From the NCBI RefSeq assembly GCF_000219915.2, contig NC_017964.1, positions 2,852,001 through 2,916,000 of the forward strand: DNA of 64,000 bases, written 5' to 3'. The notes below the pieces were generated by a model, which had not been told where the DNA came from, did not search any database, and saw only the letters and a list, made by a program, of their open reading frames with translations. The DNA comes from Advenella kashmirensis WT001 (GTDB taxonomy: Bacteria; Pseudomonadota; Gammaproteobacteria; Burkholderiales; Burkholderiaceae_B). Of the stretch, positions 1 to 64,000 are shown piece by piece (within the stretch, counting starts at the first letter, position 1; each line of letters starts with the position of its first letter). The position numbers were made by a program, and so were the translations under genes.

Positions 1-1427
1 CGACGGCGTATCCTGCTCGTTATGCCCCAGTTTACGGTAGCAGATGATATCCACGACCACGTCGTGGTTGAACTCCATGCGGTAGTCCAGCGCCAGGCGC
101 GTTGCGAACACCACGGCTTCAGGGTCATCGGCATTCACGTGAAAGACCGGTGCTTCGATCATTTTGACCACATCGGTACAGTAAAGCGTTGAACGTGAGT
201 CGCGCGGGTCAGATGTGGTAAAGCCGATCTGGTTATTGATCACGATATGCAGCGTACCGCCAGTGCCGTAACCACGTGTCTGCGCCATGTTAAGCGTTTC
301 CATGACCACGCCCTGGCCGGCAAAGGCCGCATCGCCGTGCACCAGCACGGGCAATACTTGCTGCCCCAAAGGATCGGCGCGGCGTTCCTGACGCCCGCAC
401 ACTGCCTTCCACAACCGGATTAACAATTTCCAGATGCGAGGGGTTAAATGCCAGGGAAAGGTGAACCGGACCACCGCGGGTGGACAGGTCACTGGAAAAA
501 CCGTTGTGATATTTCACATCGCCATCGGTCAGGCCTTCGGCATGCTTGCCTTCAAACTCGGCAAACAGGTCGCCGGGCATTTTGCCCATGATATTGACCA
601 GCATGTTCAGGCGGCCACGGTGAGCCATGCCCACGATAATTTCCTGAACGCCCAGATCACCGGCGTGATTGACAACCTCGTCCATCGCGGCGATAAAGCT
701 CTCGCCGCCCTCGAGTGAAAAGCGCTTCTGGCCTACATATTTGGTGTGCAGAAAACGCTCCAGCCCTTCGGCTTCGGTCAGTTGCTGCAGAATGCGTTTC
801 TTGGTATCGCCATCAAAAGAGCCGTTGGCATGGGTAGACTCCAGGCGTTCCTGGACCCAGCGCTTGGCCTTGGGATCGGACATGTGCATGAACTCGGCGC
901 CAACAGCACCGCAATAGGTATCACGCAGGGAATTGAGAATTTCACGCAGGGTCATGGTGCCCTGTTTGGTGAAATAGGTGTTAGTGGCAGAGTACACCTG
1001 ATCCAGATCGGCCTCGGTCAGACCGTAAAAGGCGGGATCGAGTTCCGGAATTTCAGGGCGTTCGCGGCGTTTCAACGGATCAAGCTCGGCCCAGCGCACC
1101 CCAAGGGTGCGATAGGCAGCGATTAATGACTGGACATGAAGCTGTTTGCTGGCCACCTCCAGGGTGGGCGCGCCTCCCCTGGCAGCTGGGCAAAGGCATT
1201 GGCCTTGGCGCGCTGGGCAAAGGAAGTAACAACAGAATAATGGCTCTGGTCCCGGGTACTTTGGGAGCAGTCTGTGGCAGGTGCGTGCTGAAGCTGATCG
1301 AAATAGTCACGCCAGTGGTCCCCCACGGCAGCCGGGTTGGCCAGGTACTCTTCGTACAGTTCTTCAACGTAGGGAGCATTACTCCCAAATAAATAAGAGG
1401 TAGATTTTTTTCAGTTTCCGTTGTCAT
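1..1427 (-). CDS. odhA: 2-oxoglutarate dehydrogenase E1 (N-terminal part, partial, 3 frame lesions)
   Basis: Thiamine-diphosphate-dependent E1 subunit of the 2-oxoglutarate dehydrogenase complex, which converts 2-oxoglutarate to succinyl-CoA in the cytoplasm. The 3' end lies outside the window. Read through three disruptions, the translation gives [77 protein letters not shown] and, at the left edge, [13 protein letters not shown], all typical of the family. Lesions: a run of seven T at 1405-1411 where eight restores the frame; GGG at 1166-1168 where four G are needed; and 391-396, where two bases (CG) are missing or one G is extra. ATG at 1427 is preferred over an in-frame GTG at 1439; neither has a strong ribosome binding site. 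gltA lies upstream on the same strand, but maeB-doxX is inserted between them. Identity is certain; whether the gene is really broken is doubtful. Confidence 0.93.
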
Positions 1428-1690
1428 AAATCGCTTCACCGTTGCGGGTGTTTCACCCTTTGAGATGCAGGTATACCTTCCGGGTTACGGCTAGACCGAG
1501 TTGCGGATAGCGGGCAGAAGGCACATAACATAGCCTTGATAGCCAATGCATTCAAGTATAACCATCGGGAGGGGTTAATCCAAGGAACTTTTTCGATTAT
1601 GAAAGAAATTACCGGTTTCAATCGATTGTGCTTGGTATATTTCGATAATTCGTTGCTAACGACCCACGCCACAAGACCCGCTGCATGAAT

Positions 1691-1786
1691 GCGGCCATCG
1701 GTTTGGCCGCAAGTGTTCGACAAAGCCCAAAGGCAAACCGACGGCTGACCGCTTTGGTTGAACAGGCTCGCCTGACCAAGGCGGTC
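1691..1786. other. Cluster of strong inverted repeats (possible structured RNA or repeat element)
   Basis: Two adjacent hairpins. The first has perfect 7-bp arms GCGGCCA (1691-1697) and TGGCCGC (1704-1710) with a 6-base loop. The second has 12-bp arms GACCGCTTTGGT (1747-1758) and ACCAAGGCGGTC (1775-1786), with one G-T type mismatch, enclosing an inner CAGGC/GCCTG stem. Neither is followed by a T tract, so they are not ordinary terminators. Function unknown. Confidence 0.5.
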
Positions 1787-2016
1787 AAAGCATCCCGGCC
1801 GCCGCAGCCTCGATTGATAATCGCCAGCGCCCTGCCGCTGACTGGCGGCTAACCATAAGCCGCGCCACTGCGCCGAGCACGCCAACAGAAACCGCCAATG
1901 CCCCACATGCAGATCGTAGCGGTCACGGCCTGCAGCCGCAGGGGCCAAGTTCCCGCCGCAACGCCGGCAACGGCGTTATCATATCGAAACTGCGATTCAA
2001 GCATAGCAATGAGCAT

Positions 2017-2028
2017 AACAATATTGTT
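2017..2028. promoter_or_regulatory. 12-bp palindrome upstream of maeB (possible operator)
   Basis: AACAATATTGTT is a perfect palindrome ending 20 bases before the maeB ATG and just upstream of its AAGGA ribosome binding site (2036-2040). Its position fits an operator in the 5' leader or at the transcription start. The cognate regulator is not known. Confidence 0.35.
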
Positions 2029-2048
2029 GAACCTTAAGGATAAAAACC

Positions 2049-4330
2049 ATGAGTCACGACCGTAACAAACTTGCCCTGGATTACCACGCCTATCCGACAC
2101 CGGGCAAAATTTCCGTTACTCCGACCAAACCGCTGGCCAACCAGGATGACCTGTCGCTGGCCTATTCGCCTGGCGTGGCCGCAGCCTGCATGGCCATTTT
2201 TGCCGAAGGCGATATAGCCGCTTCGAAATACACCTCGCGCGCCAATCTGGTCGGCGTCATCACCAACGGGACTGCGGTGCTGGGACTGGGCAATATCGGC
2301 CCGCTGGCCTCCAAGCCCGTCATGGAAGGCAAAGGATGCCTGTTCAAGAAATTTGCCGGCGTTGACGTGTTCGACATCGAACTGGCCGAAAACGACCCAG
2401 ACAAATTGGTGGACATTATCGCCGCGCTGGAACCCACATTGGGCGGCGTCAACCTGGAAGACATCAAGGCGCCGGAATGCTTCTATATTGAGAAAAAACT
2501 GCGTGAACGCATGAAAATTCCGGTTTTCCATGATGACCAGCACGGTACGGCCATTATTTCCTCGGCTGCCATTCTCAATGGCCTGAAAATCGTCGGCAAG
2601 GATATCGGCAAGATCAAATTGGTATGTTCGGGTGCCGGCGCCGCAGCGATTGCCTGCCTGGACTTGCTGGTCAACCTGGGCGTTGCACGCCAGAATATCT
2701 ATGTTGTGGACTCTCGCGGCGTGATCTGGGAAGGCCGCGACGAGAATATGGAACCGAACAAGGCGCGTTACGCACAGAAAACAGAGGATCGAACCCTGGC
2801 CGATGTGATGCGCGACACCGACGTCTTCCTGGGCTGCTCGGCCAAGGATGTACTGAAGCAGGACATGGTTGCCACGATGGCGCCTTCGCCCCTGATTCTG
2901 GCCCTGGCCAACCCCGACCCTGAAATTCGTCCGGAAGACGCCAAAGCGGTGCGCCCGGACTGCATTATCGCCACCGGCCGTTCCGACTACCCAAACCAGG
3001 TCAATAACGTTCTTTGCTTCCCCTTTATCTTCCGCGGCGCGCTCGACGTGGGCGCCACTCGCATTACCGAAGAAATGAAAATGGCCTGCGTGCAGGCCAT
3101 TGCCGATCTGGCGCAGGCCGAGCCTAGCGATGAAGTCGCCCTGGCCTACGAAGGGCAGGACCTGAGCTTTGGTCCCGAATATATTATTCCGAAGCCTTTT
3201 GACCCCAGGCTGATCGTCCAGATCGCCCCGGCCATTGCCAAGGCGGCCATGGAGTCGGGCGTCGCCACCCGTCCGATAGAAGACATGGATGCTTACCGCC
3301 AGCAACTGCTGGGCTTTGTCTACCGCTCAGGACCGTTGATGCGTCCGCTGTTCAAACAGGCACGCACCACGCCACCAAAACGCGTGGTCTATGCCGATGG
3401 GGAAGACGAACGTGTATTGCGCGCAGCGCAGACCGTGATCGACGAGCAACTGGCCTATCCGATTCTGATCGGACGCCTGCCGTGATTGAGATGCGCGTCA
3501 AGAAACTGGAGACTGCGCCTGCCGCCGGCACCAACATGGAAGTGGTCAACCCCGAAGACGACGAACGTTTCAACGAAACCTGGACGGCTTACTACAAGCT
3601 CAAGGGTCGCGATGGTGTCACGCCCAACGTAGCAAAAGCCATGGTGCGCAAGCACAACACCCTGATCGGTGTCTTGCTGATGGACCGCGGCGACGCCGAT
3701 GCCATGATCTGCGGCGTTGGCAGCCGCTTTGACAACCAGCTCAAATATGTGTCGGAAGTGATTGGCCTGAAGGAAGGCGTAACCACCTATGCGGCAATGA
3801 ACGTGCTGATCCTGCCTGACCAGACCCTGTTCATTTGCGATACGCATGTGAACGAAGATCCGACCGACGAGCAGGTTGCAGACATCACGATCCAGGCTGC
3901 CGATGAAATGATCCGCTTTGGCATTCAGCCCAAAATCGCCCTGTTGTCGCACTCCAATTTCGGCAGCCGTCCTTCGGATTCGTCACGCAAGATGGCTTCG
4001 GCCCGTCGCCTGATCGCACAGCGTCGGCCAGACCTGGAAGTGGATGGTGAAATGCATGCCGATGCCGCATTGTCCGAACGCATCCGCCTGGACGCCTATC
4101 CCGACTCCACCCTGGCCGGTCGCGCCAATCTGTTGATTATGCCAAATCTGGATACCGGCAATATCACCTACAATATGCTGAAAATGACCGGCAGCCACGG
4201 CATTGCCATGGGGCCGATTCTGCTGGGTGCTGCCAAGCCGGTCCACATTCTGACCACCAGTACAACCACAAGGCGCATTGTCAATATGACCGCGCTGGCC
4301 GTCGTTGACACGCTTGAGGAGCCTAAATAA
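2049..4330 (+). CDS. maeB: NADP-dependent malic enzyme with phosphotransacetylase-like domain (one frame lesion)
   Basis: Oxidative decarboxylation of malate to pyruvate with NADP, linking the TCA cycle to pyruvate and NADPH. The N-terminal two thirds is the malic enzyme part ([44 protein letters not shown]). The C-terminal third is a phosphotransacetylase-like domain typical of MaeB ([30 protein letters not shown]). The frame breaks at 3476-3477: CGCCTGCC ends the first part at TGA, and adding one C (CGCCCTGCC) joins it to VIEMRVKKL. The repaired length is 760 aa, normal for the family. Start ATG 2049 has AAGGA nine bases upstream. The stop TAA overlaps the doxX ATG (TAATG), so the two genes are probably translationally coupled. 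Confidence 0.93.
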
Positions 4331-4725: not shown

Positions 4726-4782
4726 TCCGGTACGTAAAATCTGCTGCCTGCACAAGCTGCAGCAGCACAGTATCGCCAGCCC

Positions 4783-4812: not shown

Positions 4813-4816
4813 ACGC

Positions 4817-6487: not shown

Positions 6488-6500
6488 TTAACATCCTTAA

Positions 6501-6526: not shown

Positions 6527-6786
6527 CTATCCCTGCCGCATCAAGTCGATAAGGCGTTGTATATTAGGCGTATCATAGATACCTTCCGGATTGGCACGGT
6601 CAAGAAGAATATCAAGCAGACTGTTGTCATCAAGTTCAAAAAGCTGGGTGAGCGACGAGACATCCTCGTCAGTCAACTCCTGTTCATAACGATCCAGAAA
6701 TTTGGTAATAATCAGATCGTTTTCAAGCAGTCCCCGGCGGCTCGCCAGCGAAGGCGTGCCCGTTCCAGTTCGTTTAGTGTGGTCAT
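6527..6786 (-). CDS. sdhE: Succinate dehydrogenase flavinylation factor SdhE (one frame lesion)
   Basis: Small assembly factor that promotes covalent attachment of FAD to SdhA. From ATG 6786 the product begins MTTLNELERARLRWRA. After restoring one G on the plus strand at 6739-6740 it continues RRGLLENDLIITKFLDRY with the family motif RRGLLE...D, then ANPEGIYDTPNIQRLIDLMR near the C-terminus. The repaired length is 86 aa, normal for SdhE. The start lies six bases after the sdhB stop, so it is the last gene of sdhCDAB-sdhE. Without the repair, the frame runs back into sdhB sequence and the true N-terminus is lost. Confidence 0.9.
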
Positions 6787-12154: not shown

Positions 12155-12277
12155 AACTGTACTGCGACCCAAACACGACCACGTCCCGCAACCGGTGACC
12201 ATGATCTTCTGAAAGACAGTGTTCAATCGCACAGGCGCAGATTCTCTTTCTGCATAGCAAATGTATTCGAAGACTGT

Positions 12278-15621: not shown

Positions 15622-16019
15622 ATGTTTCATCCTTATATCGCGACGGCGCTGCCGTTTATCCTGAGACCTGCCTGGTCGCCTGTCTTGTTATTGCCGTTGC
15701 CTCCATTTTGTATCTGGCCTTTGTCTCGCTCAAGGAGACCAACGCCCTGCTTAAACACCCTTATCTGACACAGCAACCGTTTAACCGCTACCCACTGGGG
15801 ATCCGCGGGGCGATTTTGCTGGATTATTTTCTGCGTCTGTTTCTGCCCAACAGCACCGTGTGGCTCGCCGGCCATGCCAATATCCTGCTGGCGCATGTCA
15901 ACCCCAAAACGGTTCCGCTGCGCATTCGCTGGCCACTGCTTGGCCTGTGGGGCGCATGCCTGTTGGGTATTGTTCTGATGATTATCTTCTGGGGCCTGAT
16001 GCTGACGGCCAAACAATAA
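15622..16019 (+). CDS. Hypothetical membrane protein (probable frame lesion)
   Basis: Not recognised as a named family. From ATG 15622 the product starts MFHPYIATALPF. After restoring one T at 15655-15657 it continues YPETCLVACLVIAVASILYL, SLKETNALLKHPYLTQQP, then PLGIRGAILLDYFLRLFLPN and a final hydrophobic helix GACLLGIVLMIIFWGLML. The repaired length is about 132 aa with two clear membrane helices and a middle amphipathic part. Without the repair, the long frame extends upstream into sequence with no coding look. It lies between prpD and a small GNAT gene; function unknown. Confidence 0.6.
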
Positions 16020-17726: not shown

Positions 17727-17772
17727 GATAGGCGAAAATCATTTCCCTCCTCCTCTATTTCAAGGGTCTTAT

Positions 17773-21363: not shown

Positions 21364-22553
21364 ATGAACCGAGTTCCTTTTCAATTTTCCCAACGTGCTA
21401 CGCAACTGACCAGCTCCGCGATCCGCGAGATCCTGAAAATTACCGAACGTCCTGACGTTACGTCGTTCGCGGGCGGCCTGCCCTCACATCTGGGTTTCCC
21501 CACCGAACAGATCCGCGCCGCATACGACAAGGTACTGTCTGAGTCCCCAAAGGTGGCTTTGCAATACGGACCGACCGAAGGCTACCGACCACTACGCGAG
21601 TGGGTCGTCAGCGACTTCCAGGCGCGCGGCACACAGATCGACGTTGACGAGGTGCTTATCGTTTCCGGTTCCCAGCAGGCGCTGGATCTGATCGGCAAAC
21701 TGCTGATTGATCCGGGCAGCAAAGTGCTGGTCGAATCTCCCAGCTATCTGGCGCGCTTCAGTCATTCTCACTGTTCGAACCCGTTTATGAGCCAGTGGCT
21801 ACCGATGATGGCGGCCTGATACCTGAAGACATCAGCGACGAGAAAGCCGACGGCGCCCGCTTTATCTACTGCCTGCCCAACTTTCAGAATCCGACCGGTC
21901 GCACCATGGATCTGGAACGCCGCCAGGCACTGGTCGAGCGCTGTGCCCGCCTGAACGTGCCCATTGTCGAAGACGACCCTTACGGCGAATTGCGCTACGT
22001 GGGCGAACCGTTGCCCGGGCTGCTGCATCTGGGGCGCCAGGCCGGCGCGACCGTCTTGCGCATGGGCTCTTTTTCCAAGGTGCTGGCCCCTGGTATGCGC
22101 CTGGGATACTTGGTAGCGCCACGCGAAATCATTGCCAAACTGGTGCAAATCAAACAGGCGACCGACCTGCACACCGCGACGGTGACCCAAATGGCCGTAT
22201 ACGAAACCATCAAGGATGGTTTCCTGAACACGCATCTGCCCAAGGTGCGCGAGCTGTATCGCAATCAGTGCCAGTACATGCTCGACGCCATGGACGAGCA
22301 CTTTCCCAAGTCGGCCAAATGGACCCGCCCCACCGGTGGCATGTTTATCTGGGTTAAAGTGGACGACAAATTCGACACGACCCAGGCGCTGGCCCAGGCC
22401 GTTGAACAGTACAAAGTGGCCTATGTGCCGGGGGAACCTTTCTACCCCAACGTCAATGCGCCAAAAAACACGCTGCGCTTAAGTTTCGTGACCGTAACCG
22501 AAGAAAAAATCCGGGCGGGTATTGCCGATCTGGGCAAACTCTTCACGGCATGA
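21364..22553 (+). CDS. PLP-dependent aminotransferase, class I/II (one frame lesion)
   Basis: Fold-type I aminotransferase resembling 2-aminoadipate or other LysN-like and MocR-catalytic-domain enzymes. N-terminal FQFSQRATQLTSSAIREILK and TSFAGGLPSHLGFP are typical. YCLPNFQNPTGRTM carries the cofactor-binding region and SFSKVLAPGMRLGYLVAP contains the Schiff-base Lys. The frame breaks at 21750-21751: CTGGCGCGC should be CTGGGCGCGC, giving SYLGALQSFSLFEPVYEP. The repaired length is 396 aa. ATG 21364 starts the conserved MNRVPFQF segment. It lies between acnB and acnA; the substrate is not determinable from sequence. Confidence 0.88.
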
Positions 22554-28167: not shown

Positions 28168-28724
28168 ATGAAAACCGCACAAGAACTGCGCGTAGGTAAC
28201 GTCGTCATGGTGGGCACCGAACCCTGGTCGTGCAAAGAGCTGAATACAACAAATCCGGCCGTAACTCCGCTGTTGTCAAACTCAAATTCAAAAACCTGCT
28301 GACAGGCTCGGGCAGCGAACAGGTTTCCAAAGCTGATGAAAAATTCGAAGTCGTCATGCTGGAAAAGAAAGAGTGCACCTATTCGTATTTCGCAGATCCC
28401 ATGTACGTATTCATGGACGAAGAATACAACCAGTACGAAGTCGAAGCCGAGAGCATGGGCGACGCACTGAACTACCTGGAAGAAGGCATGACCGTTGAAG
28501 TCGTGTTCTACGAAGGCCGTGCCATCTCTGTAGAACTGCCTACGATTATTGTTCGTGAAATCACCTACACGGAACCTGCTGTCAAGGGCGATACCTCAGG
28601 CAAAGTGCTCAAGCCAGCCACCATCAGTACCGGTTACAATCTGGCCGTACCCCTGTTCTGCAATATCGGCGATAAAATCGAAATCGACACACGCACCAAC
28701 GAATACCGCAGCCGTGTCATGTAA
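28168..28724 (+). CDS. efp: Elongation factor P (one frame lesion)
   Basis: Relieves ribosome stalling at proline stretches. From ATG 28168 the product reads [19 protein letters not shown]. At 28222-28224 CCCTGG should be CCCCTGG, giving [20 protein letters not shown]. The repaired length is 185 aa with the usual three beta-barrel domains and the end segment [16 protein letters not shown]. In the repaired reading, residue 32 is Arg in the tip loop KSGRN, the target of rhamnosylation by EarP encoded directly upstream. An essential-like translation factor being broken argues for a sequence error. Confidence 0.95.
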
Positions 28725-29692: not shown

Positions 29693-30390
29693 ATGAGTGC
29701 ACTTAATATACTTGAATCCCTGCTCAGCGCCGGCAAATCAGCAATGAACCAGGCTGGATCATCAGTAAAAAATGCCACCTCCGGCGACAAGTCACTGCTG
29801 TCCGACGGTGACAAAACAGCCTGAGTGCCGGTGTATTGGGCATGCTGGTGGGGCACAAAGCCAACAGCAATCTGGCAACCTACGGCGGATTGGCCGCGTT
29901 GGGTACAGTAGCATATCGTGCCTACCAGCGCTGGCAGGCAAACCAGTCCGACCGCCAGCCCGAAATGCAGGCATCTGCCCCTACCCCAGCAGCAGCCCAG
30001 CCACAGCCCCCGACGCCCATCAATCAATTGCCGGCAGCGCAGGCCGAAGAGCAAAGCAAGGCCATTCTGACAGCCATGATTGCCGCCGCCAAGGCCGATG
30101 GCCATATCGAAGAAAACGAACAGACCATCCTGGACCAGTATTTCAGCAAAATGAGCACGCCAGAAGAACAGGCATGGCTCAAGGCCGAACTGGCCAAACC
30201 GGTAGATCCGGTCGCCATCGCCAGTCTGGCCACAGACCCGCATCTGGCATCGCAAATGTATGCCATTAGCGTATCTATTATTGACAGTACGAACTTCATG
30301 GAAAAAGCGTATCTGGATGAACTGGCCAAGCAACTTGACCTGACGCCGGAACTCAAAGCAGAACTGGAAACACAGGTCGCCAAGGCTTAA
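29693..30390 (+). CDS. DUF533 family protein, TerB-like (one frame lesion)
   Basis: Inner-membrane-associated or cytosolic protein of the DUF533 family with a C-terminal tellurite-resistance TerB-like helical domain. The start MSALNILESLLSAGKSAMNQ is followed by a Ser/Gly/Lys-rich linker. At 29820-29821 GCCTGAG should be GCCCTGAG, giving LSAGVLGMLVGHKANSNLA and the Gly/Ala-rich helix ATYGGLAALGTVAYRAYQRW. A Pro/Ala/Gln linker precedes the TerB-like part (ILTAMIAAAKADGHIEENEQ). The repaired length is 232 aa. Ribosome binding site AAGGA lies upstream of ATG 29693. Function unknown in detail. Confidence 0.85.
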
Positions 30391-30617: not shown

Positions 30618-31764
30618 TCAGCCTGCACGCAATCGCAAGGGGCTCAACAGTCCGGGGTCTACGCCCTGGAGCAGCAAGTCGTCTGGCACGTCCTCGTTCA
30701 AGGCCAGCGCAACAGCCAGGCGGGAAACACCGTCAGACGATTGAATACCATAGCCGCCCTGGCCTGCCAGCCAGAAAAATCCGTCTGCTGCAGGATCCCA
30801 CCCAATAACAAGATTGCCGTCCGGCGCAAAACTGCGCAAGCCAGCCCAGACATGCGTGGGTCTGCGAATCTGCAAGGTCGTTGCCTGCTCAATGTAATAA
30901 ATGCCGGTTGCGATATCCAGCTCTTCGGCCACGACATCCTGCGGCTCCACATCATCCGCGTTGGCAGGCGAACCCAGCAACTGACCGGCATCTGGCTTGA
31001 AATAATAGGTCTCTTCAATATCGCAGACCATTGGCAGCGTTTCCAGGTTCAGCCTTCGGGCGCAGTGAAAGTAAATGCACTGCGTCGGCGTGGCTGGATA
31101 CCCACGGCCTGCACACCGCAAGCCTGCGCCACTACATCGGCCCAGGCGCCGGCGGCATTAACAACGTGACGTGCGCGAAATTGCCTGCCGTCGGCACTTT
31201 CCAGGGTCCAGACCCCGTCCTGCCGTCGTCCCTGGCGAATATCCACGGAGAAAATCAGCTCAGCGCCGTTGCGCTTCATTCCTTTCAGGTAGCCTGGTGC
31301 AAGGCATCAACATCGATATCCTCTGCATCTCGTTCGTAAATACCGCCGTACAAGTCATCCGGCTTCATACACGGCACGCGTTCCAGGACCTGCGCCGCGG
31401 TCAGCCATTCAACATTCGGGGCGCGGGCAAGCAGCTCACGATAGGTGCTGTCAAGAATTTCTTTTTGCGCATGGGTTGCCACATAGATGCAGCCCCTGGG
31501 ATGCAGCACCGGATGTTCGGAAAAGCCACTGGACTGGGCTTGCTCGAAAAATGGCCGACAGGCACGGGTCAGCGCCTGCAGTTGCGGCGGTCCGTAAGTT
31601 TCAATAAACATGGCGGCTGAGCGCCCGGTTGAATGGTATCCTGCATGCGCCTCGCGTTCCAGCACCAGAATCGTGCCCGGCCGCTGCGACAGCTGATATG
31701 CAAAAGAGGCGCCGGCAATCCCGGATCCGATAACAATATAGTCAAACACTGCTGTCTCGCTCAA
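30618..31764 (-). CDS. FAD-dependent oxidoreductase, DadA/glycine-oxidase type (two frame lesions)
   Basis: Flavin amine oxidoreductase of the DAO family. The N-terminal Rossmann motif YIVIGSGIAGASFAYQLS and the FAD segment GYHSTGRSAAMFIETYGP are clear; the middle has VVNAAGAWADVVAQACG and the C-terminal flavin region has GFFWLAGQGGYGIQSSDGVS. Lesions: a missing G (plus strand) at 31292, restoring QAYLKGMKRNG, and another at 31052, restoring PEGLNLETLPMV. The repaired length is about 382 aa. The start is TTG 31764 with GGAGG seven bases upstream. The substrate is probably a D-amino acid or secondary amine, but this is not resolvable here. Confidence 0.85.
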
Positions 31765-33257: not shown

Positions 33258-34423
33258 TCAGGGGCAAAACCCGTTATAGTCAACCAATCCGCGGGTGATG
33301 ATCATGCGCTGTACTTCGCTGGTTCCCTCATAAATCTGGGTAATGCGGGCGTCGCGGTAAAAGCGCTGCACCGGATAGTCTTCCAGATAGCCATAGCCGC
33401 CGTGAATCTGAATCGCCTGCGAGCAGACCTTCTCGGCCATCTCGGATGCAAACAGCTTGGCCTGGGACGCTTCGGACAAACAGGCAATACCCTTGTCCTT
33501 CAATGACGCCGCATGCAACACCATCAGCCGTGCAGCGTTGACCTGGGTATGCATGTCTGCCAGCATATTGGCGATACTCTGGTGTTTGATCAGGGCTCAT
33601 TGAACTGAATACGGTCTTTGGCGTAAGTAATCGCGGCCTCAAGCGCGGCGCGTGCAATACCCACCGCCTGCGCCCCGATACCGATACGCCCGTTTTCCAG
33701 ATTCGACAGTGCAATCGATAAGCCACGGCCACGTTCGCCCAGCAGATTTTCCTGGCCAATCGTGCAATTTTCAAGCGTAATGGCGCAGGTATCCGAACCC
33801 CGGATACCCAGTTTGCTTTCCACCCTGCTCACAATAAACCCCGGCGTGTCGGTCGGCACCAGAAACGCCGAAATACCACGTTTGCCCTGATCCGGATCGG
33901 TCACCGCAAACACAATGGCCAGCCTGGCGCGCTTGCCATTGGTCACGAACTGCTTGGCGCCGTTGAGCACCCACTTGCCATCCTGCAACTGGGCACGGGT
34001 TTTCAGATTGTGCGCCTCGGACCCGGCCTGCGGCTCAGTCAGACAAAAGCACGAGATGGCGCGACCGCTGGCCAGGTCGGGCAGCCACTGCTTTTTCTGG
34101 GCCTCATTGCCGCTGTTGAGCAACGTCCCACAACCGACAGAGCAGTGAACCGACACCAGCGTGCCGGTTGCCGCATCAGCAGCGGATATTTCTTCCAGCG
34201 CCAGTGCATACGACACGTAATCCGTTTTTGATCCGCCCCACTCCTCGGGCACAACCATGCCCAGCAGACCAAGGTCTCCCATGCGGCGCAGCACGTCATC
34301 ATCAATCCAGCCCGCAGCTTCCCAGGCGGCGGCGTGCGGCGCAATTTCCTGCTGGGAAAAGTCGCGCGCCATATCGCGGATCATGCGTTGTTCTTCGCTT
34401 AGCGCTGTGTCGAATGTACTCAT
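33258..34423 (-). CDS. Acyl-CoA dehydrogenase, probably isobutyryl/short-chain (one frame lesion)
   Basis: FAD enzyme introducing a 2,3 double bond in a short or branched acyl-CoA. N-terminal [20 protein letters not shown], substrate-loop [18 protein letters not shown], and the C-terminal [20 protein letters not shown] followed by [12 protein letters not shown], where the Glu is the catalytic base. At 33593-33595 (plus strand GGG; four needed) the frame is restored to [18 protein letters not shown]. The repaired length is 388 aa. It overlaps mmsB by four bases (ATGA), which points to valine degradation (isobutyryl-CoA to methacrylyl-CoA). Confidence 0.92.
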
Positions 34424-35553: not shown

Positions 35554-36497
35554 CTATACGACCCGCGATATTACCTGGCCCGTTTCAAAGAACCGGTCTA
35601 GGTTATCAATCACACGCTGGCTCATTTTCAATCGGGTTTCTACCGTCGCGCTGGCCGAGTGCGGCATGAGCGTCACACGCGCATGCTCGCGCAACGCCGG
35701 CGGCACATCCGGCTCATGCTCGAACACATCCAGCGCAGCAAAGCCCAGCTTGTCCTGCTGCAGTAACTCGATCATGGCCGTCTCGTCAATCACCGTACCC
35801 CGGGAAACATTGACGACCGTCCCCTTGCGTCCCAGGGCAAGCAACACTTCCCGACTGATCAGATGATGCGTGGAGGGTCCGCCCACGCATGTCAGCACAA
35901 GATAATCGGCCCACTCGGCAAGCGCCGTCAGCGAGGCTTCATAGCCATAGGAGACGTCATCGCGCGCCTTGCGATTATGGTAGTGGATCTGGCAATCAAA
36001 ACCGGCCAGGCGGCGCGCCACTTCAATGCCAATACCGCCTAGGCCCACAATCCCCACATTCTTGCCTGATACGCTCTGCGCCAGTGGGAACTGGCCCTCT
36101 ACCGGCCAGCGCCCTTCGCGCACATAACGATCACCCCAGACCAGTTGCCGGGCGCTGCCCAGCAGCAGACACACCGCCAGATCGGCCACACACGCATTAA
36201 GAACATCTGGCGTATTGCCCAGCTGTATGCCTCTTTTTTTCAGCTCACCGGCATCAATCGTATCGTAGCCGACCCCGAAGCTGCTGACCACGCCCAGGTC
36301 AGGCAGGCTGTCCAGCCACTCATTTTTCAGTCCATGTCCCGCAGTGGTGACCAGGCCACGTACACCCGTGCCATGTTCGGCCAGAAACGCCTGCGGATCT
36401 GCTTGCTCCCACAAGGCCAGCACCTCGTAGTTCTCCTGCAGATGACTATTGACCAGTGGCGTGCCGCTGCGACCTGGACGATTTTTGTTTTTGCCAT
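35554..36497 (-). CDS. D-2-hydroxyacid dehydrogenase, NAD(P)-binding (one frame lesion)
   Basis: Member of the D-isomer 2-hydroxyacid dehydrogenase family (glyoxylate/hydroxypyruvate reductase type). The N-terminus MAKTKIVQV continues as RSGTPLVNSHLQENYEVLAL after restoring one G (plus strand) at 36471. The NAD-binding motif is VGIVGLGGIGIEVARRLAG; VNVSRGTVIDETAMIELLQ and FEHEPDVPPAL carry the catalytic Arg/Glu region, and MPHSASATVETR the catalytic His. The repaired length is 314 aa. ATG 36497 has a GAGGAGG ribosome binding site. Monocistronic; substrate unassigned. Confidence 0.88.
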
Positions 36498-36766: not shown

Positions 36767-38028
36767 ATGTCTCTCATAGTCCACAAATACGGCGGAACCT
36801 CCATGGGCTCCGTTGAACGAATCAAGAATGTTGCGAAACGCGTAGCCAAGTGGCACAACGCAGGCCATCAGGTCGTGGTTGTGCCCTCAGCCATGTCCGG
36901 TGAAACCAACCGCCTGCTGGGGCTGGCCAAGGACATTTCCGACTTGCCCGACGGTCGCGAACTGGACATGCTCGCCTCTACCGGCGAACAGGCCAGCAGC
37001 GCCCTGCTCGCCCTGGCCCTGCAGGCCGAAGGCATCAAGGCCCGCAGCTTTACCGGCTGGCAAGTGCCTGTGAAAACAGATTCGGCTTTTACCAAGGCGC
37101 GCATCAAGTCCATCGACGACAAACGCATCAAGGCAGAGCTGGACAGCGGCCGGGTCGTTATCGTCACCGGTTTCCAGGGCGTTGACCCAGAGGGCCACAT
37201 CACGACCCTGGGTCGCGGCGGCTCCGATACATCGGCCGTTGCCATTGCCGCAGCGATCGGCGCCGACGAGTGCCTGATCTATACAGATGTCGATGGCGTC
37301 TACACCACCGACCCGCGCGTAGTGCCAGAAGCCCGGCGCCTGTCTGTTATCTCGTTTGAAGAAATGCTGGAAATGGCATCGCTGGCTCCAAAGTCCTGCA
37401 GATCCGTTCCGTCGAATTTGCCGGCAAATACAAAGTGCCGCTGCGCGTCCTGTCATCGCTCACCGACCCTGCCATTGCCCTGCAGGAAGAGAAAAATTCA
37501 GGAACATTAATTACCTTTGAGGAAGATTCAAAAATGGAATCCGCTGTCATTTCCGGTATCGCGTTCAGCCGCGACGAAGCCAAACTGACGTTGCTGGGTG
37601 TACCTGACAAGCCCGGCGTGGCCTATGCCATTCTGGGCCCCGTTGCCAAAGCCAACATCGACGTCGACATGATCATCCAGAACCAGTCTGTAGATGGCAC
37701 CACCGACTTTTCCTTTACCGTGAACCGTAACGAATTCAAACGGGCGACGGAATTGTTGACTGACACCATCCTGCCTGCAGTCGGCGCTCGCGAAGTGCTG
37801 ACCGACGACAAAGTGTGCAAAGTGTCTATCGTGGGTATCGGCATGCGCTCGCACGCCGGTGTCGCCAGCCAGATGTTCAGCACGCTGGCCAAGGAAGGCG
37901 TCAACATCCAGATGATCAGCACCAGTGAAATCAAGACCTCGGTCCTGATTGAAGACAAATACATGGAACTGGCTGTTCGCGCCCTGCACAAAGCCTTCGG
38001 CCTGGACCAGGAAGCCGAACAGGCCTGA
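36767..38028 (+). CDS. lysC: Aspartate kinase (one frame lesion)
   Basis: First step of lysine, threonine, methionine and diaminopimelate synthesis. The N-terminal [20 protein letters not shown] is the ATP/aspartate site; [19 protein letters not shown] and [20 protein letters not shown] are conserved. Two C-terminal ACT domains give feedback control ([39 protein letters not shown]). At 37384-37385 CTGGCTCC should be CTGGGCTCC, restoring [20 protein letters not shown]. The repaired length is 420 aa. A small CCCGA/TCGGG hairpin lies in the leader (36735-36746). Monocistronic, upstream of tRNA-Ser. Confidence 0.95.
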
Positions 38029-38188: not shown

Positions 38189-38281
38189 GGAGACGTGGCC
38201 GAGAGGCTGAAGGCACTTCCCTGCTAAGGAAGCATGTGGCTAAAACCTGCATCGAGGGTTCGAATCCCTCCGTCTCCGCCA
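38189..38281 (+). tRNA. tRNA-Ser (anticodon GCU)
   Basis: A 93-base gene with acceptor arms GGAGACG (38189-38195) and CGTCTCC (38271-38277), D-arm GCCGAGAGGC, anticodon GCT in a CTGCTAA loop, a long variable arm as expected for serine tRNA, and T-loop GGTTCGAATCC. CCA is encoded at 38279-38281. Confidence 0.97.
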
Positions 38282-38351: not shown

Positions 38352-39661
38352 TTACCCCGACGCAAGCACCTGCCCCATCGTTTCATACGCTGCCCGCAAC
38401 TGCGCAGGACTGGTGACATAGGCGGCAACACATACACTGTCTGGCCAATGGGGCGAATCAACAGGCCCTTTTCCAGGAAACGCTGGTGCAACTGCCCGGC
38501 TGAATGCGGATACGACGGCGGCAGATCGAAGGCTGCAATGGTTCCCGTAACCCGCGGACGCAGTATCGCCGGCACGGCTTGTTGCAGCAGTTGCAATCCC
38601 TCATGATGACATTGCGGCAGCACCTGCAGCGCACGGGCAGTCTCATCGGTAACCAGCAAATCCATGGCCGCGACGGCTGCGGCACAGGCCAGCGGATTGG
38701 CCGTATAGGAATGCCCATGAGAAAATGCACGATCAGCCTGCTCGGACAAAAAAGCCTCGTAGATATGGTCACCCGTGATGGTCAGTGCCAACGGCAGAAA
38801 ACCACCCGTTATCCCCTTGGACACGCATAGGAAATCCGGCACCACGCCTGTCTGCTCGAACGCAAAGCGGGTACCGGTGCGACCAAAGCCGGTCATCACT
38901 TCGTCGAAAATCACCAACGTGTCGTGTGCACGAGCCAGCGCACATGCCTTGGCCACAAATTGCGGCCGGCACATACGCATGCCCGCTGCACCCTGCACCA
39001 GCGGCTCCATGATCATGGCAGCGACCTGGCCGGCATGCCGTATCAAAGCAGCTTCCAATGCCGCAAGCGCTGCCTGCTCGCTGGCCTGCACCTCCTGGTC
39101 GTTCCACCAAGTCTGCGGAAAAGGGATCGCTACGGATTCGAAAAACAAGGAACGAAATTGATCGTGATAGCCGCAATGCGCGCCAACGGACATGGCGCCA
39201 AAGGTGTCACCATGGTAGCCGCCTTCAAAGCCGATAAACAGCTTGCGCTCCTGCCCATGCGCATTCTTCCAGTACTGGTGCGCCATTTTCAGCGCCACTT
39301 CAACAGCCGTAGAACCATTATCGGAAAAGAAGAACTTGCCCAGTTGCGCGGGCAGCATGGCATTGAGCGACTCACACAGTTGCACGGCAGGCTCATGGGT
39401 GCAACCGGCAAACAGCACATGCTCCAGTTTGTTTGCCTGCGCGGCAATACTTTGCGCGATGTGCGGGCAGCCATGCCCGAACAGGTTCACCCACCAGCTT
39501 GATACCAGATCTAGATAGGCACGATTGTCCGTATCGTAAAGCCAAGGGCCGCGCCCATGCGAGACCGGCAGGCGTGGCGCGGCAGTTTGCTCCTGCGTAA
39601 ACGGATGCCACACCAGCGCCTTATCCCGTTGCGCCAACGTGCAATCCATTCTCCGATTCAT
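38352..39661 (-). CDS. bioA: Adenosylmethionine-8-amino-7-oxononanoate aminotransferase (one frame lesion)
   Basis: PLP enzyme converting KAPA to DAPA with S-adenosylmethionine as amino donor, the third-last step to biotin. Landmarks: KALVWHPFTQEQTAAPRLPV, LDLVSSWWVNLFGHGCPHI, FFSDNGSTAVEVALKMAHQY, VIFDEVMTGFGRTGTRFAFE, and SKGITGGFLPLALTI with the Schiff-base Lys. Near the end, at 38421-38422 (plus strand GG; GGG needed), repair changes the tail to VYVLPPYVTSPAQLRAAYET and places the stop at 38352; the unrepaired frame runs past into the terminator. The repaired length is 436 aa. Start ATG 39661 has GGGAG eight bases upstream. Last gene of bioF-bioD-bioA. Confidence 0.93.
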
Positions 39662-39684: not shown

Positions 39685-40304
39685 TCATTCTTGCATTCCC
39701 AAAGCACGTTTAAGTGCGGCAGTCGGCGCAATTTGCATCAAGGCAGAGGCACTTACACCATCCGGTAGCGGTGGAATTTGCTGCAGCACGGGTACACGAC
39801 CATAGTCTGCAATGGTGCGGGCCGTCATGTCGCAAAGCGGCCCGTTGAGTATGACGCCCAGCACAGCAATACCGCGCAAGCGCAGGGCCTGCAAGGTAAG
39901 CAGCGTGTGGTTAAGCGTTCCCAGCCTGGTTAAGGCCACCACCAGCACCGGAAGACCCAGCCTGGCGATCAGATCAATCATCAGGCATTCGGTACCCAGC
40001 GGGACCATGACGCCGCCGGCGCCCTCCACCACCAGCCGTGGCGCGACAGGCAGGTGTATGTCGTCCAGCGCGAGCCGCCTGCCTCCAGCCGGGCGGCATG
40101 ATGAGGTGATGCCGGCTCCCGCAGCCGGTATGTTTCCGGGTAAGTATGACAACCGGCATGGATCTTCACCCACTCGCTATCGGTCATCGGTTGCAGGCCC
40201 GCCTGCACCGGCTTGAAATAATCCAGCCCAAAATGCCGACAAAGCCAGGCCGACACTAGCGTTTTACCGACATCGGTATCGGTTCCTGTGACAAAAATAC
40301 GCAT
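39685..40304 (-). CDS. bioD: Dethiobiotin synthetase (one frame lesion)
   Basis: ATP-dependent carboxylation and ring closure of DAPA to dethiobiotin. The N-terminus is RIFVTGTDTDVGKTLVSAWL (P-loop), then DYFKPVQAGLQPMTDSEW. After restoring one C (plus strand) at 40078-40079 it continues RLALDDIHLPVAPRLVVEGA and GGVMVPLGTECLMIDLIARL. The repaired length is 206 aa. ATG 40304 lies just after the bioF stop (40307-40309), so the two genes are tightly coupled; a GTG nine bases upstream is possible. bioA follows 23 bases downstream. Confidence 0.92.
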
Positions 40305-40306: not shown

Positions 40307-41498
40307 TCAACACCCTGTCGCTGGACGAGACACGTGCCGCACAATGGCCTGGGCCAGTTGGTGCACGCTATCGCTGTCATGAAGCGCATTAATGGCAATA
40401 CGCAATCGCGACGTACCTGTCGGGACCGTGGGCGGTCGGATCGCCGATACCATCATCCCCTCATCAAGCAATGCCTGCTTCAATGCCAGCGTGCCCGATT
40501 CATCTCCCAGACATACCGGCACGATATTGGTGCCATCACCCATGACGGTTATACCGCGTGCACGCAGCAGCTGGCGCAGCAAATCGGCCATGGCAAATAC
40601 CTGCCGGCGTTGTACAGCAAGCGTCGGAACCATACGCCATGCCTGGGCGGCGGCCGCCACGCTCATGGGCGATGGCGCCGTTGAATAAATGAAGCCGGTC
40701 GTTCTGTTCAGAATGAATTGCTGCATGATCGCATTGCAGGCAATATAGGCGCCTGCCCACCGATAGCCTTGCTGAAGGTTCCCATCACCATATGCGGCAC
40801 CGGCGATAGATCAACGGTCGTGGACAGGCCATAGCCTTGCGGACCATACAAACCGGTGGCATGCGCTTCGTCCAGATACAGAAAACAGTTGTAGCTGGCG
40901 GCAATTTCCAGCAAATCCGCGATGGGCAACACATCCGCTTCCATCCCGTGAACCGTTTCAGTCACGATAAACGCGGGCCGGGAGGCCACATAATACTGTT
41001 GCAACTGACGGCGCAGGTCGGCCATGTCGTTGCGCTCGAATAGCACATATTCGGCCCCCGATAAAAACATCGCGTTATAGAGACTGGAGTGATTGAGCCT
41101 GTCAAAAAAACAATGGGTGGCGCCGGCAGGACTCGCTGGCTCAGTAAACTGGCCAGTACGGTCATATTGGCCTGATACCCAGAACTGAATATGACGGCGG
41201 CTTCGGTCTGTTTGTCCAGGGCGATCTGCCGCTCAAAAGACTCTATCAGACGGTAGTTGCCGGACAGCAGTCGGGAACCGGTTGAGCCGGCACCACATTG
41301 TCTGGCGGCTTCTATAGCGGCATTCACGACATCCGGGTGCGTGGCCAGACCAAGATAGTCATTACTGGAAAAATCGAACGACACCGGGAGATCTACCGGC
41401 GGCAATGCGCGCAGTCGACTTTTGGCGGCCTGTTCAACACAATATTGATCGTAAAAATGATACATATGGGGCAACACCTGACTCTTTGTCGCAAACAT
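40307..41498 (-). CDS. bioF: 8-Amino-7-oxononanoate synthase (two frame lesions)
   Basis: PLP enzyme joining pimeloyl thioester and alanine to form KAPA. Landmarks: PVSFDFSSNDYLGLATHPD, GAGSTGSRLLSGNYRLIESF, LYLDEAHATGLYGPQGYGLS, and MGTFSKAIGGQG with the catalytic Lys. Lesions: a run of seven A on the plus strand (41104-41110; eight needed), restoring IVFFDRLNHSSLYNAMF, and CC at 40752-40753 (CCC needed), restoring GGQGAYIACNAIMQQFI. The repaired length is 397 aa, somewhat long at both ends. ATG 41498 has GGGAG upstream; a second Met at MYHFYDQ lacks a site. First gene of the bio operon. Confidence 0.92.
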
Positions 41499-44268: not shown

Positions 44269-44329
44269 TTCTGTCGCCGCTCCCGGATTCGCCGCGCCGG
44301 TGTCGTAAAACGCACCGGTCGCCAGGTTT

Positions 44330-44782
44330 CTAGGCGAGCACCTTCTTCATCCGCTCGAAATCACGACGATACTGCTTTGCCAGTTTTGTTTTTTGCGCAT
44401 CCGTCAGAATTTTTCCAGATGCCTGAAAGAATTTTTTCTCTTCTTCACGCAAATGGTGATGCACCTTTTTTGACAACGCCTTGGCCTGCGCCAGCCACCC
44501 TGGTGAGTTGGACGGCTCAGACTGCAAATCCTCCAGCATTTCCTCAATTTCGTGGTGTTCGGCCAGCGCATGTCGCGAAGGCGACAAGCCGTTGTCATCC
44601 ATCAGGATGGGCGCATATAAAAACCGTTCTTCTGCCGCCGCGTGCGCTTCGAGTTCAACATACAACGCCTTGAAAATATCGTCCCTGCTGCCCGTACCTG
44701 GTTTGGTACGAAGCAGCCGCTTACAGAGACTGCGTTGGGTTTCATGGCTCTCGCGCAGTGCATCATAAATTGTTTCCATCAT
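44330..44782 (-). CDS. Hemerythrin HHE domain protein
   Basis: A 150-aa helical protein with two HHE-type metal-binding repeats: YDALRESHETQRSLCKRLLR, ELEAHAAAEERFLYAPIL, ALAEHHEIEEMLEDLQ and KVHHHLREEEKKFFQA. His and Glu spacing fits a non-haem di-iron site for O2, NO or iron handling. ATG 44782 (MMETIYD) has AAGGGA upstream. Monocistronic, convergent with the entericidin-like gene. Confidence 0.9.
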   Translation of the reverse strand: MMETIYDALRESHETQRSLCKRLLRTKPGTGSRDDIFKALYVELEAHAAAEERFLYAPILMDDNGLSPSRHALAEHHEIEEMLEDLQSEPSNSPGWLAQAKALSKKVHHHLREEEKKFFQASGKILTDAQKTKLAKQYRRDFERMKKVLA

Positions 44783-45025
44783 AGGTCCCTTTCGTGTTTT
44801 CCGTTATTCGGGGCTTTTGCGCCATACGCGATGGCCGTCGTAAAGCCATAAGCAAATGGCAACAAAATTCACCTGCAGCCAATCGCCTCCCACATCTAGC
44901 CTCAACCTGGATGAATATGCAACAATTGACGTTGTACTCGAGCAACAAAATCAAAGCAAAAAAAGCTGAAATGACAGGCATGTCGCGCGTTATCAACATT
45001 TTTTAAGATTCAACATGAAAAGAAC

Positions 45026-45486: not shown

Positions 45487-45731
45487 ATGTCCGTTCAAAC
45501 ATTTGGCCGATGTGCCGTTGTCTTGTCTCTCGCCGTCTTTGTCGCCGGCTGCGGTGGAGGCGCCAATAAAAAGCCGGTCGCTGCCAATCTCGGCAACGAG
45601 TGCAAATGGCACCGCAGCAGTTGCCTGTATGAAGCTCATACGAGCCGGGAGAGCGGGACTACGCAGAACAGGAAGCCAAACGCCTGAACGAGGCCCAGTC
45701 GATCAGGCTGGTTCACAGCTCCTGGCGATAA
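45487..45731 (+). CDS. Hypothetical lipoprotein (one frame lesion)
   Basis: From ATG 45487 a signal peptide SLAVFVAGC ends in a lipobox with Cys 22, followed by Gly- and Lys-rich and then KWHRSSCLYEG. At 45634 GAAGCTC should be GAAGGCTC, restoring SYEPGERDYAEQEAKRLNEA and a C-terminal SIRLVHSSWR. The repaired length is 81 aa. No family is recognised. GAAGGA lies upstream of the start. Two mature Cys residues (in NECKWHR and SSCLY) might form a disulfide. Confidence 0.7.
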
Positions 45732-59175: not shown

Positions 59176-59245
59176 TCCCCATCCTATTAATTCATGCAAT
59201 GCCAGGCAAGTCTACTTGTTTACAGGCAGTTGATTGGATTCAGTA

Positions 59246-60229: not shown

Positions 60230-60441
60230 GAGCTTGTCTCCTGCTGTTTTTATGGTAACTGGCGGTATCACTGCCCTCAAATCTGTAGCGAAACAATTGT
60301 TTTTTCACCACCGGGCCATGCTAATAGTTCTTCGTTTCAAATAAAAGAAGCATTTCAGACTAGCTAATATTCCTAAAATACATATCTGAACTAGGTATTG
60401 AGCGCCGTATTTGACCGGAACAACAAGACATCGCCGGCACC

Positions 60442-61350: not shown

Positions 61351-61445
61351 CGCCCACTCCTTTAAGAATAAACCGGCGTCAGAAATGGTTATACCATTAT
61401 GCTTGAGCACATGTCGTACAGATATTATGCGGCCATCACGTCAAT

Positions 61446-61581
61446 AGCGCTGCCAAGATAAAATTAACAACGTCGGGGCAGCGCTTATGATGGCGGCATC
61501 ACACAGTTGCTTGTGGCAACTATCAATATTGCCAACAAAAAAGCGCTGAAATACCAACTATCACAGTTGGCATTCAACGCT
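61446..61581. other. Structured intergenic region with three inverted repeats
   Basis: AGCGCTGCC (61446-61454) / GGCAGCGCT (61477-61485), AGTTGC (61505-61510) / GCAACT (61516-61521), and a long nested hairpin 61542-61581 with inner arms CCAACT / AGTTGG. CAACTATCA occurs twice (61517 and about 61555). It lies in the 400-base gap (61351-61752) between katA and lysR, both on the minus strand. It may form the 3' end of the katA transcript, a small RNA or the lysR leader. The rest of the gap shows no gene. Confidence 0.5.
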
Positions 61582-61752
61582 CCGGAAGGCTGTTTTGAAC
61601 CGCCCTCACCCGCTTACACGCCTTGTCTAATCACATCGCTTAAACACATCAACTAAGCTCATCGCGTAAATCTTTGCCTAGGCCATTGATCTACGCCAGT
61701 CACTTGAGCCAGACGCATGTGCACGCTCGCGGGCGATCTGCCGGATTCAGGG

Positions 61753-63251
61753 TCAGGCTTCGCCTTCGCCGGCTGCCGGCTCGGGTGCATTGCCTGCACG
61801 CACTTTTTCTTCAATACGACGCCCGACGTCTGCATCAACGCGCTTCCAGTAATCGAAAGCGCGCTCCAGAACCGGACTGCGCACGCCTCCCAGCAAACTG
61901 CCGGCCACCTGCTCTACCAGCTTGCTGCGCTGATCATCATTGAAGACCTCGCGAACAAGCGTGCCGGGCTGGCCGAAATCATCATCTTCTGCATGAAGCG
62001 TATAAGCTTGACGAACCATATCGCCATCCGTTTCCCAGCCGTCGTCCATTTTCCCGGTGGCGTCTGCCCAGTCACGTCCCGCACTGTTAGGCGCGTAAAC
62101 AGGTGCATTACCGCTATGCTCATAAGCCATCTGACCATCGAACATATAAGTATTGACGGGAACTTTAGGGCGGTTCACCGGCAATTGATGAAAATTGGTA
62201 CCGATCCGATTACGCTGCGCATCGTTGTATGCAAAGGCGCGTCCGAGCAACATTTTGTCCGGAGACAGACCGATACCTGGAACCACATTACCGGGCGAAA
62301 ATGCAGCCTGTTCGATCTGCGCAAAAAAGTTCTCGGGATTGCGATTCAGTGTCATCGTGCCGACCTTGATCAGCGGATAATCCTTATGCGACCAGGTTTT
62401 AGTCAGATCAAAGGGGTTGAAACGATACTTGGCCGCATCGGCATAGGGCATGATCTGCACCGACATCACCCAGCTCGGATGCTCGCCGCGAGCAATGGCA
62501 TCAAACAGATCACGCCTGTGAAAGTCGGCGTCCTTACCCGCCATGTCAGAAGCTTCGGCGTTACTGAAAAATGCCATTCCCTGGTTCGTATGGAAATGAT
62601 ATTTAACCCAGAATTTTTCACCGGCGGCATTGACCCACATATAGGTATGTGAACCGTAACCGTTCATATGCCGCCATGTGCGTGGCAGCCCACGCTCACC
62701 CATCAGATAGGTAACCTGGTGCGCTGTTTCAGGATTGCTGGTCCAGAAGTCCCACTGCATATGATTGTCGCGCAAGCCGGAATCAGGCAGCCGTTTCTGA
62801 CTGCGAATAAAGTGCGGAAATTTCATCGGATCGCGCACAAAAAATACCGGTGTGTTGTTACCCACCAGATCGTAGTTGCCCTCGTCTGTATAGAATTTCA
62901 GAGAGAAGCCACGCACGTCGCGCCAGGTATCAGGCTGCCCGCCTCGCCTGCTACGGTAGAGAACCGTGCCAGCATCTCGGTCTTACAGCCTTTTTGAAAG
63001 ACTGCAGCTTTCGTGTATGCAGAGACGTCTTCCGTCGTTTCGAACTCGCCAAATGCGCCGGCACCCTTTGCATGTGGCTGACGCTCCGGCACTTTTTCAC
63101 GGTTAAAGTGCGCCATTTGCTCAAGAAAATGAACATCGTGAAGCAAAATGGGCCCGTTTGGTCCGACAGTAAGCGAGTTGCGATCACTTTGCGCAGGTGC
63201 ACCTGCGCCTGTGGTAGAGCCAGTAGCGTTTTTTTTGCTGGATTCATTCAT
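61753..63251 (-). CDS. katA: Catalase, haem monofunctional (one frame lesion)
   Basis: Dismutates hydrogen peroxide. [20 protein letters not shown] and [20 protein letters not shown] carry the distal His, [20 protein letters not shown] the distal Asn, and [20 protein letters not shown] the proximal haem-ligand Tyr. At 62933-62934 (plus strand GG; GGG needed) repair restores [20 protein letters not shown]. The repaired length is 499 aa, a typical small-subunit catalase. Start ATG 63251 has AGGAG at nine-base spacing; the Met at 63260 would be too close. It is divergent from the next gene, with a 350-base control region between them. Confidence 0.95.
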
Positions 63252-63601
63252 GGAAAACATCTCCTGTTGCACAAAAATAAGCAAAGCCATCTCTGTAATG
63301 ATCGGCTTCACACCGTTAATATAAGCCATTTCCGGCGGCAATTGGGAAAGTCTATCCTACTCATGTTCCATCTAATCGAATAGCGGCTGGCCGCGGTCTT
63401 TTCTCCTGAAACACAGTGGCCTTCTTTGCAATTTCATGGCGGCAGGGGCTATCATAGGCCGTAAAGAGTCATTCAATGCTCTGGAGCCGGCACATCTCTG
63501 CGACCGCGGCGCGTTGCTATACGCACCCCGCGCCTGGCTACCGGCTGGAGCCGCCCAAGCAAGAATGAATCCGATCCGACAGCGCAATAGCAAGGAATAC
63601 A

Positions 63602-64000
63602 ATGGGACTATTAATCGATGGAAAATGGCAGGATCAATGGTACGACACAGCCGGTAGCGGGGGACGCTTTGTCCGCAGCGATGCGCAGTTTCGTCACTGG
63701 GTCACCGCTGACGGCAGCCCCGGGCCGAGCGGCGATGGCGGGTTTCAGGCCGAAGCCGGACGCTACCATCTATATGTATCGCTGGCCTGCCCATGGGCAA
63801 ATCGCACTCTGATCCTGCGCGCACTCAAAGGTCTGGAAGACAAGATCAGCGTGTCTGTTGTCAACCCATACATGGGGGCCAAGGGCTGGACGTTTGAACC
63901 GGGCGCGGCGTCGTGGGCGATCCGGTTGGCAACGCCCGCTATCTTTATGAAGTCTACCTGAAAGCACAGCCCGACTATAGTGGTCGCGTCACGGTGCCGG
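63602..64000 (+). CDS. Glutathionyl-hydroquinone reductase (partial, one frame lesion)
   Basis: Xi-class glutathione transferase that reduces glutathionyl-hydroquinones (YqjG/PcpF/ECM4 type). MGLLIDGKWQDQWYDTAGSG and RFVRSDAQFRHWVTADGSPG are followed by the active-site motif YVSLACPWANRTLILRALKG with the catalytic Cys in CPWA. Near 63901-63903, GGG should be GGGG, restoring EPGRGVVGDPVGNARYLYEV and YLKAQPDYSGRVTVP up to the window edge, where the gene continues. AAGGA lies before ATG 63602. Confidence 0.9.

Follow-up and report, generated by a model that had tools for sequence, protein, structure and literature searches.

Why should one stretch of a bacterial chromosome carry frame breaks in so many genes of central metabolism? 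The stretch, here called the window, comprises the 64,000 nucleotides at positions 2852001–2916000 of the chromosome of the soil bacterium Tetrathiobacter (now Advenella) kashmirensis WT001 (genome G000, contig C1 in our set). The record, which is that of the type strain, consists of a chromosome of 4,365,995 bp (CP003555) and a plasmid of 57,884 bp (CP003556) (PMC3669393). From the sequence of the window alone, an original prediction had listed 24 single-base frame lesions in 19 genes, with homopolymer undercalling as the best reading. A paper of 2013 counted 578 frameshifted genes or pseudogenes among 4,452 coding sequences (CDSs) of WT001 and read them as ‘genome implosion’ (PMC3669393). 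Are the breaks mutations, or faults of the record? We conclude, with a probability of about 0.97, that the lesions in the window are base-calling errors in the WT001 record and not mutations. They are no biological feature.

How was the record obtained? According to the methods passages of PMC3669393, the WT001 assembly was made in MIRA from reads of the Ion Torrent Personal Genome Machine (PGM; 316 chip, mean length 231 nt, 37×); scaffolding relied on SOLiD mate pairs, and capillary reads were added for the gaps. Sequence and assembly both derive from PGM reads, as an explanation by PGM error requires.

Excess of one-base deletions

How does the window compare with its relatives? We aligned five genomes of the same genus to it (82–91% identity, 40–56 kb each) and scored private events over the 43,404 of its 64,000 bases at which at least three relatives were aligned. 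WT001 has 22 private net −1 events and two private net +1 events. Treated alike over 42–46 kb each, G001, G006, G009, G007 and G003 have 1, 0, 3, 3 and 5 of the former and 1, 0, 2, 5 and 5 of the latter. (With an identity to WT001 of only 82% where the window aligns, G003 is probably another species.) At 20 of the 24 predicted sites the relatives are unanimous in the net length difference, 19 with five relatives and that in bioA with four. The other four, in the odhA linker and in the lipoprotein, katA and YqjG-like genes, are borne out by frame switches relative to the proteins of relatives or by the DNA of one relative. The proteins of relatives run on across the breaks in a different frame. 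The comparison with their assemblies, which the original prediction had proposed, came out as expected there.

Does the excess hold in a larger sample? We took 464 kb of WT001 around and including the window, together with 480 kb each of G001, the sister genome, and of the more distant G009; 324.5 kb of WT001 aligned to both. Over this length, private −1 and +1 events number 180 and 21 in WT001, 15 and 14 in G001, and 74 and 61 in G009. On the coordinates of G001, WT001 has 192 private deletions, 151 of them coding, and 30 private insertions. Measured against the genes of G009, interior frame-changing insertions and deletions (indels) number 145 in WT001 and seven in G001, while in-frame indels number 14 and 11. 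Since the in-frame counts are similar, it is the frame-breaking class that is inflated in WT001. Over the 324.5 kb the excess is 172 one-base events, or roughly one every 1.9 kb, which is within the one site per 1–2 kb that PGM error would give. Extrapolated to the chromosome, the load of about 0.53 per kb would correspond to roughly 2,300 errors.

Run and flank spectrum

Which bases are lost? Runs of 2–5 C or G (37,374 runs) hold 119 of the 192 deletions and runs of 2–5 A or T (26,336 runs) hold 13 (Fisher p = 2e-15). Per 1,000 runs, the deletions number 8.9 for CCC and 10.6 for GGG, as against 0 for AAA and 0.4 for TTT. The 73 deletions outside short C/G runs comprise 53 at single bases, the 13 in A/T runs of 2–5 and seven in longer A/T runs; A/T runs of 4–5 account for two of the 192. 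Of the deletions private to the control genomes, C/G runs of 2–5 hold only 4 of 24 in G001 and 19 of 106 in G009. Over-representation of short-run C/G deletions among one-base indels, the mark of PGM error, is present in WT001.

Are all such runs equally affected? They are not. A C/G run of 2–5 with both favoured flanks, written G-C(n)-T, loses a base in 50 of 4,409 cases, with one favoured flank in 61 of 19,005 and with neither in 8 of 13,960 (both versus neither, odds ratio 20, p = 2e-23). When the strands are folded, 24 of the 664 coding C3 runs with G before and T after lose a base, compared with three of the 2,062 with neither flank. Deletions in C and G runs are alike at length 3 (30 and 29) and less so at length 2 (15 and 30). 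The undercalling that the original prediction favoured has positive evidence behind it in the excess, in the spectrum and in the lack of visible selection described below. It needs refinement, in that the losses fall mostly in short C/G runs (2–5) with a G-C(n)-T flank effect, not in long homopolymers, and a minority are insertions or single non-run bases.

Indispensable genes

If the lesions were genuine, would indispensable genes be avoided? We ran family searches on 10 genomes each, six of them same-genus relatives of WT001. The genes rpoB, gyrB and dnaG were chosen because PMC3669393 names them; their neighbours were not so chosen. In WT001 each of the three is divided into two adjacent fragments, and all six other genomes of the genus have it in one full-length piece. 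In the other families, G014 gives split matches for gyrB and, at contig ends, for rpoB, and G015 does so for dnaG. The gyrB fragments of WT001 stand beside an intact paralogue that scores under the gyrB cut-off. The event in rpoB is an insertion, and rpsC is whole. In four regions of at most 20 kb around rpoB, rpsC, gyrB and dnaG, 9 of 42 well-aligned genes are hit, among them rplA, purA, hisZ and parA/parB-like genes (the last named partly by eye).

Two further genes, tilS and lpxH (named by search hits), are each split over three frames in WT001. With five private one-base indels in 293 codons, lpxH (L170:1789-2670) carries the most among the 289 testable genes defined below. The rpoB, gyrB, dnaG, tilS and lpxH families could hardly all be dispensable together in a cultured autotroph. 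The avoidance of indispensable genes that genuine pseudogenes should display is not seen in these five, nor do the lesions depend on nonsynonymous divergence (dN).

Selection on the lesioned genes

Do the lesions bear any mark of selection? In the sister G001 private one-base indels do: 11 lie in 295 kb of coding sequence and 24 in 30 kb of noncoding sequence, so that they are about 22-fold rarer per base in coding. In WT001, by comparison, deletions in C/G runs of two or more occur at 3.06 per 1,000 coding runs (106 of 34,688) and at 4.80 per 1,000 noncoding runs (13 of 2,710).

Of the 385 genes called on G001, 289 were testable in the sense that more than 80% of their length aligned to both other genomes. 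Lesions affect 114 of them (39%), against 116.1 expected by length alone. The ratio of nonsynonymous to synonymous divergence (dN/dS) is 0.053 for the hit genes and 0.052 for the others, with a bootstrap interval from −0.008 to 0.010 for the difference. Relaxed selection, which genuine pseudogenes should show, is not detected in the hit genes; a very recent loss would stay invisible to this measure. The most conserved quartile has 45 deletions, against 35.8 modelled, and the difference between observed and modelled deletions shows no correlation with dN (Spearman 0.007, p = 0.90). Within genes, the positions of the lesions do not depart from uniform (Kolmogorov–Smirnov p = 0.16). Nor are the frameshifts matched by nonsense: interior nonsense codons number 12 in WT001 and five in G001 (about 78,400 codons each), beside 145 and seven frame-changing indels. 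Counting in G001 frames gives 32 nonsense codons among 123,258 codons, many of them close to the ends of genes; that figure has no matched control, and the matched count is used here.

Intact alleles and the plasmid

Are intact versions of the broken genes to be found? Of 10 genomes of the genus searched for bioF, six have it whole and three gave no match; in the tenth, WT001, it lies in three pieces. A full-length BioF of 397 residues, P0008, is encoded on a contig 40,396 bp long. Scored per residue in the better frame, it agrees with WT001 BioF at 395 of 397 positions; the other 14 proteins tested in this way reach at most 92.7%. An intact, near-identical copy of BioF exists. Since it differs at two residues, P0008 probably comes from another strain and not from WT001 itself. 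An intact same-species allele was not found for TilS (best 90.8% among 12 proteins tested) or for LpxH (best 90.4% among two), although clustering at 90% may hide one in either case.

What of the plasmid pWTk445? Table 1 of PMC3669393 gives it 0 pseudogenes, and the run model predicts about 26 deletions on it. A comparison with a plasmid collection gave no near match for its first 6 kb, and the matches to another 8 kb were all distant. A search with 15 proteins taken from a distant plasmid gave matches for 12, among them VirB4, which was split over two frames; pWTk445 is therefore not lesion-free. The split virB4 (L139:6918-9298) belongs to a conjugation system.

Sites in the window

Where do the breaks lie? 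Unless stated otherwise, each site below has a net difference of −1 against all five relatives in the DNA alignment. Three breaks fall in odhA on the minus strand. That at 393..398, for which the original prediction had allowed two bases at 391, is indeed a net −2 against five of five relatives, with protein frames in support. The linker break placed at 1166–1168 is real, its position being off by about 20 bases; the proteins of four relatives, together with DNA, locate it at 1186..1189 in a variable linker. The last lies in a long T run (1404..1411) at the 5′ end of the gene. An Rfam sucA RNA motif (RF01070) adjoins this end at 1432–1513, with 41.1 bits at a cut-off of 40.

On the plus strand, maeB (malic enzyme) is broken at 3475, acnB at 18572 and 18940, and an aminotransferase gene at 21751..21752; in all of these the frames of relatives' proteins agree, and family searches add support except at the first acnB site. 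The mdh break is at 11523, where both pieces have 100% residue identity to G001. Family searches also support efp (28221..28224) and lysC (aspartate kinase; 37383..37387). The break in a membrane protein gene, whose name is that of the original prediction, was predicted near 15655 with one base missing; the frame is off, and the net difference at 15666..15672 is +2 against all five relatives, so that bases are extra.

On the minus strand lie sdhE (6739..6740; its name is that of the original prediction and its strand inferred or from the same source), bioA, broken near its 3′ end (38420..38422; net −1 against the four relatives aligned, with a family search), and bioF, broken at 40755..40756 (protein frames and family search) and at 41103 (protein frames). 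Protein frames further agree at two breaks in an FAD oxidoreductase gene (31051..31054 and 31291..31294), in an acyl-CoA dehydrogenase gene (33593..33597) and in bioD (40075..40084), all on the minus strand and named as originally predicted. A further frame switch near 41465, at the bioF start, looks like divergence of the start region and was rejected as a lesion. The catalase gene katA (62932..62937, minus strand) is judged from the proteins of three relatives and a family search.

Four more genes keep their predicted names. Those for DUF533 (29817..29821) and a hydroxyacid dehydrogenase (36468..36469) follow the general pattern; the lipoprotein gene (45625..45645) is broken relative to the DNA of one relative only, and the YqjG-like gene (63883..63907, plus strand), which continues beyond the window end, relative to the proteins of two. 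Family searches with nine lesioned pieces supported malic enzyme, malate dehydrogenase, AcnB, a pyridoxal phosphate (PLP) aminotransferase type, EF-P, aspartate kinase, BioA, BioF and catalase.

Several differences had not been predicted. A one-base loss against five of five relatives lies at 17772, apparently a little upstream of where acnB starts. The tRNA-Ser(GCU) gene (38189–38281, plus strand) has lost one base in its variable arm (38235..38237), being 93 nt long compared with 94 in the four relatives scanned; this lesion lies in no reading frame. Window-specific differences, probably intergenic, lie at 12246, 43167, 44306–44330 and 44815–44821, the last two being net −1.

Origin of the lesions

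How might a base be lost from the consensus? In flow sequencing, some short C/G runs would be called one base short in many reads, so that the consensus drops the base; runs with G before and T after, or the reverse complement, would be the most affected. Because the SOLiD reads are described as having served for scaffolding, the method as stated offers no step at which such sites would have been put right. We infer this cause at the level of the reads. In its rate, in the bases and run lengths concerned and in its indifference to function, the pattern agrees with PGM consensus error; decay, a mutator or recoding fit it poorly.

Might the breaks nevertheless be real? In the published scenario of mass pseudogenisation, repair genes fail first, frameshifts spread and confinement to a host lies ahead (Ghosh 2013). 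It is backed by the count of 578 in 4,452 CDSs and by the authors' judgement that sequencing error is ‘very unlikely’, and it lists genes for gyrB, RNA polymerase beta and primase as pseudogenised (PMC3669393); mutS, moreover, is in three pieces in the record. But rpoB, gyrB, dnaG, tilS and lpxH can hardly all be dead in a cultured autotroph. The equal dN/dS of lesioned and unlesioned genes, in-frame indels at the level of the sister, the failure to avoid conserved genes and the small parallel rise in nonsense codons speak against decay as the cause of most lesions, and we hold it very unlikely. A hypermutator, through loss of mismatch repair or a DinB-like polymerase, would meet one of these objections, since −1 slippage in a burst so recent that selection would not yet be visible would likewise leave dN/dS unchanged. 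Deletions of −1 in G/C runs are typical of DinB, and the WT001 branch carries more substitutions than that of the sister. Yet the transition/transversion ratio (2.36 in WT001, 2.49 in the sister) and the synonymous changes (8,009 and 7,304) stay near those of the sister. A mutator would be recognized by a raised substitution rate or shifted spectrum and by slippage that rises with run length, which is not the pattern found; so strong a flank effect at runs of 2–3 bases is unlike simple slippage, and here too indispensable genes are hit. We regard a hypermutator as extremely unlikely.

Could the deletions be real and translation compensate, by programmed or general frameshifting? This would square dead-looking essential genes with a living cell. 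Sites of programmed frameshifting would, however, be expected in translated genes alone and would be shared with relatives. Instead a tRNA gene is hit and so, at no lower rate, are noncoding C/G runs, in neither of which translation can matter, and the scored window sites are by construction absent from the aligned relatives; we give compensation almost no credence. A combination, in which a context-specific mutator with hot spots at G-C(n)-T has made some two thousand real −1 deletions in the chromosome and the cells survive by general frameshift rescue or as a mixed population whose members each bear few of the deletions, strikes us as exceedingly improbable.

Base-calling error remains our preferred reading, and several observations weigh against it. 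The authors of the record state that every inactivating position was re-checked in read alignments (PMC3669393), and our own comparison is one of assemblies and not of the raw reads (PGM, SRX249067; SOLiD, SRX247703). The 53 deletions at single bases are not in runs, though part of them may be ordinary divergence; only 29% of all high-frequency indels (HFIs) of the PGM lie in homopolymers (PMC3623719). Nine ribosomal genes of the S10 operon have no lesion where 1.7 were expected. The search for intact alleles succeeded for one gene of three (BioF, not TilS or LpxH), and the copy found is probably that of another strain. Substitutions on the WT001 branch number 12,650, against 10,663 on that of the sister (about 19% more); the ratio of nonsynonymous to synonymous changes, 733:8,009 against 552:7,304, gives WT001 a somewhat higher nonsynonymous share, and its interior nonsense codons outnumber those of G001.

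Significance and comparison with known systems

What follows for the published account? The evolutionary story of genome implosion and of a ‘pathogen in the making’ rests on breaks of this kind, and the title of that paper occurs in at least two other papers. Since 39% of the testable genes are affected, the published figure of 578 may be too low as a count of the errors. The G-C(n)-T short-run signature, seen here in WT001, suggests a cheap candidate test for the pseudogenes of other PGM-only genomes. Among the matches listed, the only earlier doubt in print comes from passages of PMC6403173, which count 925 frameshifts in the WT001 record, suspect many such to be errors and leave the question open. 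PMC8042751 does not mention WT001; the passages of PMC4028982 and PMC5632650 that mention the species do not mention its pseudogenes.

How do the lesions compare with those known elsewhere? The breaks described as reductive decay (PMC3669393) are of the same kind and in the same record; the biological cause proposed for them finds no support here. Other frameshift-laden records present the same kind of problem: that of Vibrio cholerae LMA3984-4, beside which WT001 is named, has 196 frameshifts, tied to error-prone sequencing (passages of PMC6403173). Those passages contain no tests of spectrum, selection or context. The closest likeness is to the HFIs of the PGM, which occur about once per 1,000–2,000 bp and are said to cause frame-shifts in assembly (Bragg 2013, PMC3623719). 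Among the strand-asymmetric HFIs, C and G deletions dominate, and 82% of this class lies in runs of 2–3. The one-base indels of WT001 resemble them in their rate of about one per 1.9 kb and in the prominence of short-run C/G deletions. They differ in being mostly C/G deletions, whereas HFIs include many A/T insertions too, and in their G-C(n)-T flank effect, which the passages of PMC3623719 on HFIs do not describe beyond one mention of a possible motif.

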